Assembly (NCBI GenBank): GCA_937906345.1
Contig: CALCXY010000054.1
Coordinates: forward strand, 1-35,676
Direction: 5' to 3'
DNA: 35,676 nucleotides
Source of the DNA: Candidatus Woesearchaeota archaeon
GTDB taxonomy: Archaea; Nanobdellota; Nanobdellia; Woesearchaeales; CALCXY01
The translations under genes and the position numbers were made by a program. A model generated the notes under the pieces. It searched no databases, was not told the origin of the DNA, and was given only the letters and a program-made list of their open reading frames with translations. Of the stretch, positions 29,053-29,930 are shown piece after piece; within the stretch, counting starts at the first letter, position 1; every line of letters begins with the position of its first letter.

Positions 29053-29093
29053 TCAATTAGATTATCTCATTCTAGTAAAAATTAGTGATTACA

Positions 29094-29807
29094 ATGAAAT
29101 TTGATTTGAGTAAAATAGAAGCAAGTAATAATGATAAATTAAAGAATATTAAATTACCAGATCATGCCACTGAGAAATTAGCAGAGTTTATAGGCATTCT
29201 TGCAGGTGATGGGTATTTATATCGTGGATCAAACTCATATACAATGGGTATAGTTGGCCATCCAATTAAGGATTATGAATTTTTTAAATATGTTCAATAT
29301 TTGATCTTGGAACTCTTTAACAAACCTACTAAGGTAAAAGAAAGACAAAGAGCTATTAGAATTGTATTTCAATCAAAATGGGTTTCTGAATTCCTCATAA
29401 AAATTATCAAAATGCCATATGGTAATAAAAAATGCTTTCAAGTTTGTGTACCTGAATTCGTACGACAGGATAATGCATTATCACGTAGCTTCTTGAGAGG
29501 ATTATTTGATACTGATGGATCTGTTTTTGTTTCTGATAAAAGAGGTAGTCCTAATTATCCAACTATAGAGCTTTCAACAACTAGTTCAGCAATGATAAAT
29601 CAAGTTCATAAAATACTTCAGCGCTTAGGATTCCGTGTAACAAATATTCGAAGCAATTTAAGGTATCCAAATCCCAATTTCATTTATATAGTTAGTTTGA
29701 ATGGCAATAAAAACATGCAAATGTGGTATGATCAAATAGGATTTTCTAATCCAAGTAAGAAGAAAGTTTTATTAAAAATATTAAAAAATGGGGACGCTGG
29801 GATTTGA
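29094..29807 (+). CDS. Free-standing LAGLIDADG homing-endonuclease-like protein
   Basis: 237 aa with two LAGLIDADG motifs: EFIGILAGDGYL (acidic D39) and SFLRGLFDTDGSVF (acidic D141), about 100 residues apart, as in single-chain homing endonucleases. Each keeps its catalytic acid, so it may be active. There are no intein splicing blocks or host protein around it. The ATG at 29094 is preferred over a GTG three codons earlier because GTGAT there serves as Shine-Dalgarno. The last 19 bases overlap, in the opposite direction, the 3' end of a tRNA-Phe gene that has two introns. The target site is unknown; association with the tRNA or its introns is inferred from position. Confidence 0.8.
   Translation: MKFDLSKIEASNNDKLKNIKLPDHATEKLAEFIGILAGDGYLYRGSNSYTMGIVGHPIKDYEFFKYVQYLILELFNKPTKVKERQRAIRIVFQSKWVSEFLIKIIKMPYGNKKCFQVCVPEFVRQDNALSRSFLRGLFDTDGSVFVSDKRGSPNYPTIELSTTSSAMINQVHKILQRLGFRVTNIRSNLRYPNPNFIYIVSLNGNKNMQMWYDQIGFSNPSKKKVLLKILKNGDAGI
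29783..29788 (-). terminator. T6 terminator of the tRNA-Phe gene
   Basis: Six T on the minus strand immediately after the discriminator base A73, a typical archaeal stop signal. It lies inside the coding 3' end of the LAGLIDADG gene. Confidence 0.6.
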
Positions 29808-29834
29808 ACCCAGGACTCCTACGTCTTCAGCGTA

Positions 29835-29855
29835 TAGAGCTGCATTTTGATGCAT
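29835..29855 (-). other. tRNA-Phe intron 2 (21 nt), position 27/28
   Basis: The RNA forms a strict bulge-helix-bulge: exon GAGC pairs with intron GCTC (4 bp), three-base bulges ACA and TAT flank it, and the inner hairpin is TGCAT/ATGCA with loop CAAA. Cleavage between the second and third bulge bases joins C27 to U28 and completes the anticodon stem CTACG/CGTAG. The GAGC used is also the 3' strand of the D-stem, so the D-arm cannot be folded while this intron is in place. Confidence 0.85.
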
Positions 29856-29864
29856 GTGCTCTCC

Positions 29865-29886
29865 TAAGACGTTTGGATTCCAAACT
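29865..29886 (-). other. tRNA-Phe intron 1 (22 nt), in the D-loop after G18
   Basis: Exon AGAC pairs with intron GTCT (4 bp), bulges TGA and TAG flank it, the inner hairpin is GTTTGG/CCAAAC with loop AAT, and the outer helix is CTC/GAG. Cleavage at the second/third bulge bases restores the D-loop AGACTGGGA. Confidence 0.85.
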
Positions 29887-29930
29887 CAGTCTGAGCTACG
29901 TCCCCATTGTTACTATGGATTCAGGATTGC

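Follow-up and report, generated by a model that had tools for sequence, protein, structure and literature searches.

A twice-interrupted tRNA-Phe gene beside a predicted LAGLIDADG homing endonuclease points to possible collaborative homing of tRNA introns in Woesearchaeota

Archaeal tRNAs interrupted by several introns at non-canonical positions are known from Thermoproteales and Asgard archaea, where the introns are short and sit in bulge-helix-bulge (BHB) motifs with a 4-bp central helix, and where the splicing endonuclease EndA is present (PMC4090602, PMC8450103, PMC11291895). Relaxed versions of the motif are reported to be removed efficiently only by (αβ)2 and ε2 enzymes (PMC6379350). Homing endonucleases offer a second set of precedents. 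In cyanophage S-PM2, the free-standing endonuclease F-CphI is encoded next to psbA, a gene bearing a group I intron, and it targets the intronless allele, the intron itself blocking cleavage (PMC6083498). Among the 16S rRNA introns S1205 and S1213 of Pyrobaculum oguniense, an endonuclease promotes co-conversion of a short hairpin intron nearby that itself encodes none (PMC4496867), while T-even phages encode the free-standing GIY-YIG endonuclease SegB next to tRNA genes in which the enzyme cuts (PMC13096335). Why archaeal tRNAs acquire introns at so many scattered sites has no settled answer, and one earlier proposal is that such introns protect tRNA genes from integrating elements (PMC3293823). 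The locus described here and its relatives suggest a concrete, testable driver: a homing endonuclease that targets the tRNA from a neighboring gene, matched by an intron.

The locus lies in a 35,676-nt stretch of DNA, analyzed at its full length and called the window below, from an uncultured Woesearchaeota-like archaeon whose genome bin of 1.64 Mb is 77% complete. A tRNA-Phe(GAA) precursor gene of 117 nt with two introns occupies positions 29789-29905 on the reverse strand, as judged from the sequence, the spliced fold, a BHB search and comparison with relatives. On that strand, exon 1 (29887-29905; 19 nt, tRNA positions 1-18) is followed by intron 1 (29865-29886; 22 nt, position 18/19), the 9-nt micro-exon GGAGAGCAC that forms exon 2 (29856-29864; tRNA positions 19-27), intron 2 (29835-29855; 21 nt, position 27/28) and exon 3 (29789-29834; tRNA positions 28-73), which carries the anticodon GAA. 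A search over all BHB-compatible intron pairs in the gene ranked 18/19 with 27/28 first, confirming the intron lengths and positions given in a sequence-only reading of the window. Its prediction of a perfect 74-nt tRNA after intron removal is likewise borne out, the spliced 74-mer folding as a full, canonical cloverleaf with all four helices and the anticodon GAA.

Each intron shows a 4-bp central helix (AGAC/GTCT in motif 1 and GAGC/GCTC in motif 2, exactly as proposed), 3-nt bulges and predicted cut sites 2 nt into each bulge. Both motifs had been described as strict BHBs. The description holds for motif 1, with 3 outer, 4 central and 6 inner base pairs, but not for motif 2, which has 5 inner and 4 central pairs and no closing outer helix and is better classed as a relaxed, HBh′-like motif. 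At 21-22 nt, and with no Rfam match at the gathering threshold, neither intron qualifies as a group I intron. ARAGORN and Rfam at the gathering threshold both miss the gene, and tRNAs with introns at such odd positions escape these tools. Judged from its sequence, the locus appears to be a functional tRNA-Phe gene whose two archaeal BHB introns would be spliced in vivo.

Comparison with relatives strengthens this assignment. Pattern matching across 353 genomes of the order, joined by G031 from a separate scan, found both tRNA-Phe sites interrupted in 14 genomes including the host (G000, G144, G145, G148, G149, G157, G165, G172, G175, G222, G235, G005, G169 and G031), with diverged intron sequences; in G169 the second intron lies at 25/26 instead of 27/28, a position seen in six genes. 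Five genomes carry intron 1 alone (G079, G228, G246, G039, G023) and three carry intron 2 without intron 1 (G167, G177, G275), and the remaining matches are mostly uninterrupted at these sites. The pair of positions had seemed unfamiliar for a tRNA-Phe, and both are absent from the (non-exhaustive) list in PMC4090602, but the pair is not peculiar to the window's gene and is spread over families f1, f6, f10, f32, f66 and f71 of the order. A scan of named genomes placed the two-site architecture mainly in records called Woesearchaeota.

Motif 1's central helix is Watson-Crick paired at 98 of 104 positions across the 26 genes that have intron 1, against 7-23 of 104 in slid registers, and exon base N16 shows covariation with the intron base it pairs with (p=0.0003 against shuffles). 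Because the sequences change while the pairing is kept, the motifs are conserved as structures. The interruption of both sites in 13 other genomes, together with helix pairing and covariation, therefore argues that the two-intron reading is not a product of chance. The same evidence bears on whether the gene is a decayed pseudogene, with the real tRNA-Phe lying in the 23% of the genome that the bin lacks. The incompleteness of the bin and the second tRNA-Phe copy in G031 would be compatible with decay, but the cloverleaf is perfect, exon-intron covariation extends across many genomes, and the 77%-complete bin yielded no other tRNA-Phe(GAA). Decay is accordingly a most improbable explanation.

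Several other matches were set apart. Those in Bathyarchaeota and Micrarchaeota were considered as the same architecture and rejected: they too have an intron at 18/19, but with the second intron, placed by eye, at 30/31 in three Micrarchaeota loci (L088, L100, L114) and seven of Bathyarchaeota and Hecatella (L090, L093, L102, L104, L105, L118, L119). Several of these genes have a further T-loop intron. A few matches in bacteria and at some single loci are chance matches within other sequence. The G031 bin holds two tRNA-Phe genes (C53, C103), possibly through bin mixing; one has both introns and an endonuclease, and the other is interrupted elsewhere, in the anticodon-loop region.

The two motifs overlap at a single base, G22, used by motif 1 in its outer helix and by motif 2 in its central helix, as the sequence-only reading had recognized. 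It had further argued that the D-arm cannot form while intron 2 is present and that splicing may be ordered; the overlap would then be a regulatory device. The native D-stem indeed competes with motif 2, whose central helix is incompatible with it. Constrained folding, however, gives -38.5 kcal/mol with both motifs formed, compared with -32.0 and -30.9 kcal/mol for either alone; joint folding costs motif 1 one outer pair, and motif 1 is absent from the default fold. Each intron occurs alone in some relatives and must therefore be spliceable alone. Taken together, joint folding and the single-intron relatives mean that the shared G22 forces no order of splicing, and a regulatory role for the overlap is very unlikely.

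The host genome encodes a plausible splicing machinery, comprising a gene for the ligase RtcB and just one alpha-type EndA gene, whose product has both N and C domains. EndA would cut out both introns and RtcB would join the exons. Across 40 genomes of the order, 37 carry one alpha-type EndA copy and none was found in three, although the introns occupy many positions. No EndA beta subunit was recovered by PF01974, by PF02778 or by a profile of the alpha type, which leaves room for a very divergent one; no second EndA copy appeared in 11 genomes at E<=10 save one insignificant match, and the Crenarchaea-specific loop is absent from alignments read by eye. The marks of (αβ)2 and ε2 enzymes (a beta subunit, a three-unit fusion or the specific loop) were thus not found in these searches. 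Odd-position, apparently relaxed introns alongside only a single alpha-type EndA gene sit badly with the view expressed in PMC6379350. Separately, RtcB matches at G000:C87:17951-20749 fall in two pieces of a single 987-aa frame, a layout that an intein could explain, and LAGLIDADG_3 domains also occur in other long frames of the host genome.

The tRNA-Phe gene does not stand alone. The adjacent open reading frame, overlooked in the sequence-only reading, encodes a predicted homing endonuclease, and this association proves to be systematic. The gene, at 29085-29807 on the forward strand, is convergent with tRNA-Phe and specifies a 240-aa LAGLIDADG_3 protein (Pfam E=9e-19). Its translation contains two LAGLIDADG motifs with acidic residues, LAEFIGILAGDG (29178-29213) and SFLRGLFDTDGS (29487-29522), both on the forward strand and in nearly invariant columns of alignment A1. 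A structure model (pLDDT 89.9) has the LAGLIDADG fold, with structural matches to PI-PfuI, the TliVMA intein and I-DmoI. The product is thus predicted from sequence and model to be an intact LAGLIDADG homing endonuclease, likely to cleave DNA. Its last 16 coding nucleotides and stop codon lie inside the 3′ end of tRNA-Phe, where the TGA is the complement of T-loop sequence.

Homologues occupy the same place beside multi-intron tRNA-Phe genes in other genomes. Within the host genome they also lie beside intron-bearing Met, Gly(CCC) and Gln tRNAs, and a relative of the endonuclease accompanies 5 of 13 intron-bearing tRNAs and none of 10 intronless ones (Fisher p=0.046). A further element, G000:C34:415-547 (L027), resembles a 133-nt pre-tRNA, probably with several introns; its acceptor stem, GGGGACG/CGTCCCC, is that of tRNA-Phe, and an endonuclease gene adjoins it. 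The BHB solver gave no solution for L027.

In a census of 101 tRNA-Phe loci, a convergent endonuclease gene lies just downstream of 9 of the 55 genes with introns and 0 of the 46 without (p=0.0036); the other 46 of the 55 intron-bearing genes have no neighboring endonuclease now. Viewed from the endonuclease side, a pre-tRNA lies within 400 nt in 51 of 90 loci of the order, compared with 0 of 90 in a reversed-sequence null. Search profile A1 derives mostly from copies next to tRNAs, so these fractions are biased upward and do not represent LAGLIDADG genes at large. At 47 of the 51 the tRNA is at the 3′ end of the endonuclease gene, often with a 16-nt overlap, and about 45 of the 51 tRNAs have a length that allows for introns. 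All 12 loci from outside the order have a tRNA near the endonuclease (flanks of about 1.5 kb on each side), with 5 of the 12 tRNAs intronless; intronless tRNAs also adjoin L327 and a few other endonuclease loci within the order. The genomes in all these counts are not independent samples. Even allowing for the profile bias, chance is untenable in view of the reversed-sequence null and of the loci from outside the order.

The endonucleases are further sorted by the tRNA they accompany. On a tree of 56 endonucleases, tRNA isotype requires 15 changes (minimum 9), whereas shuffled labels average 33.2-33.3, and none of 200 and none of 1000 shuffles reached a value as low as 15. Host family requires 32 changes on the same tree, against a shuffled mean of 38.3, and the copies beside tRNA-Phe come from nine host families. 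The clades therefore follow tRNA isotype, not host family, and match their targets.

Empty sites suggest that the gene is mobile. In G148, about 1.05 kb including the endonuclease separates tRNA-Phe from the next gene; its congeners G149 and G165 have 35-55 nt in this interval, and the flanks are 74-89% identical. G170, with the endonuclease, and G169, without it, share flanks and differ in their tRNA-Phe introns. Such inserts might instead reflect use of the tRNA 3′ end as an integration site by mobile elements, the endonuclease being remnant cargo. Archaeal elements do often enter tRNA genes, which has been proposed as a cause of intron gain (PMC3293823). However, the insert of about 1 kb is mostly the endonuclease gene, the gene beside tRNA-Gln is located upstream, its own 3′ end facing the tRNA 5′ end, and integration sits poorly with clades that track isotype. 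There is accordingly little to recommend this explanation.

Intron positions also vary with the endonuclease clade. For tRNA-Gln, where introns were assigned by reading the sequences, an intron at 10/11 is present in 8 of 8 genes of one endonuclease clade and 0 of 4 of the other, and a D-arm intron in 1 of 8 and 4 of 4, respectively. For tRNA-Phe, a variable-loop intron occurs in 7 of 7 genes of two endonuclease clades and 1 of 11 elsewhere, while anticodon-stem introns do not separate the clades (8 of 11 and 3 of 7, p=0.33). These clade-intron contrasts are exploratory, the groups having been seen before testing. The apparent tRNA-Gln intron at 10/11, between the acceptor and D-stem, was noticed on contig 52 of G000 (L014/L171) and also in seven relatives whose endonucleases belong to that clade.

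These intron patterns bear on whether the introns and the endonuclease have anything to do with each other. The BHB introns could be inherited vertically in an intron-rich lineage, the endonuclease being a selfish, free-standing, tRNA-targeting gene whose self-protection comes from its own insertion or from divergence of the site. Independence of this kind would account for the copies beside intronless tRNAs, for the majority of intron-bearing tRNA-Phe genes that lack an endonuclease, and for genus g108, in which genomes with and without the gene have the same introns. It does not predict the skew of the census (0 of 46 intronless against 9 of 55 intron-bearing genes) or the agreement of intron positions with endonuclease clades at tRNA-Gln and tRNA-Phe. 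Moreover, with the gene located outside the tRNA, a site in either the D arm or the anticodon arm would stay uninterrupted by the gene's insertion alone. We consider independence a serious but rather unlikely explanation.

Some hallmarks of collaborative homing are present: a free-standing endonuclease gene adjoins an intron-bearing target, relatives have empty sites, and endonuclease clades follow their targets. We favor, at a probability of roughly 60%, a reading in which the BHB introns are spliced by EndA and RtcB and are spread and kept by collaborative homing. The tRNA-Phe gene and its convergent, tRNA-Phe-specific LAGLIDADG endonuclease would form one module. The endonuclease would cut tRNA-Phe alleles that lack a protecting intron, and repair from the donor would copy the intron or introns, the 3′ part of the tRNA and the endonuclease gene together. 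The intron, by destroying the recognition site, would render the donor immune, while splicing would restore a normal tRNA. This would amount to collaborative homing in which the group I intron is replaced by protein-spliced tRNA introns. If one intron of the window's tRNA-Phe is protective, our guess from relatives, whose pattern is not significant, is intron 2 at 27/28. The strongest counter-evidence to collaborative homing is the occurrence of endonucleases beside intronless tRNAs and of many introns without an endonuclease; both exceptions would come from a homing cycle with loss and decay, but equally from independence.

Endonucleases beside particular, mostly intron-bearing tRNAs suggest a route for the spread and persistence of tRNA introns. 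In the wider form of this proposal, to which we give somewhat better than even odds, Woesearchaeota and relatives harbor a tRNA-isotype-specific LAGLIDADG family flanking tRNA genes, short odd-position BHB introns spread and persist by shielding the tRNA gene from its own endonuclease, and collaborative homing is a driver of archaeal tRNA intron gain.

BHB introns and collaborative homing are both of known kinds. Their combination with isotype-specific endonucleases flanking archaeal tRNAs was not found in the literature searched, nor was a description of tRNA-flanking LAGLIDADG genes in archaea, most subscription journals lying outside its coverage. Compared with the BHB-interrupted tRNAs of Thermoproteales and Asgard archaea, the present gene belongs to Woesearchaeota, with only a single alpha-type EndA gene found. 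SegB belongs to another nuclease family and to phage genomes, and is described as not favoring particular tRNA isotypes. In contrast to F-CphI, the system described here, predicted from sequence, involves a LAGLIDADG enzyme, an archaeal chromosome, a tRNA target and protein-spliced introns of about 20-30 nt. In P. oguniense, the endonuclease gene resides inside a second rRNA intron, whereas here it lies outside the tRNA gene.
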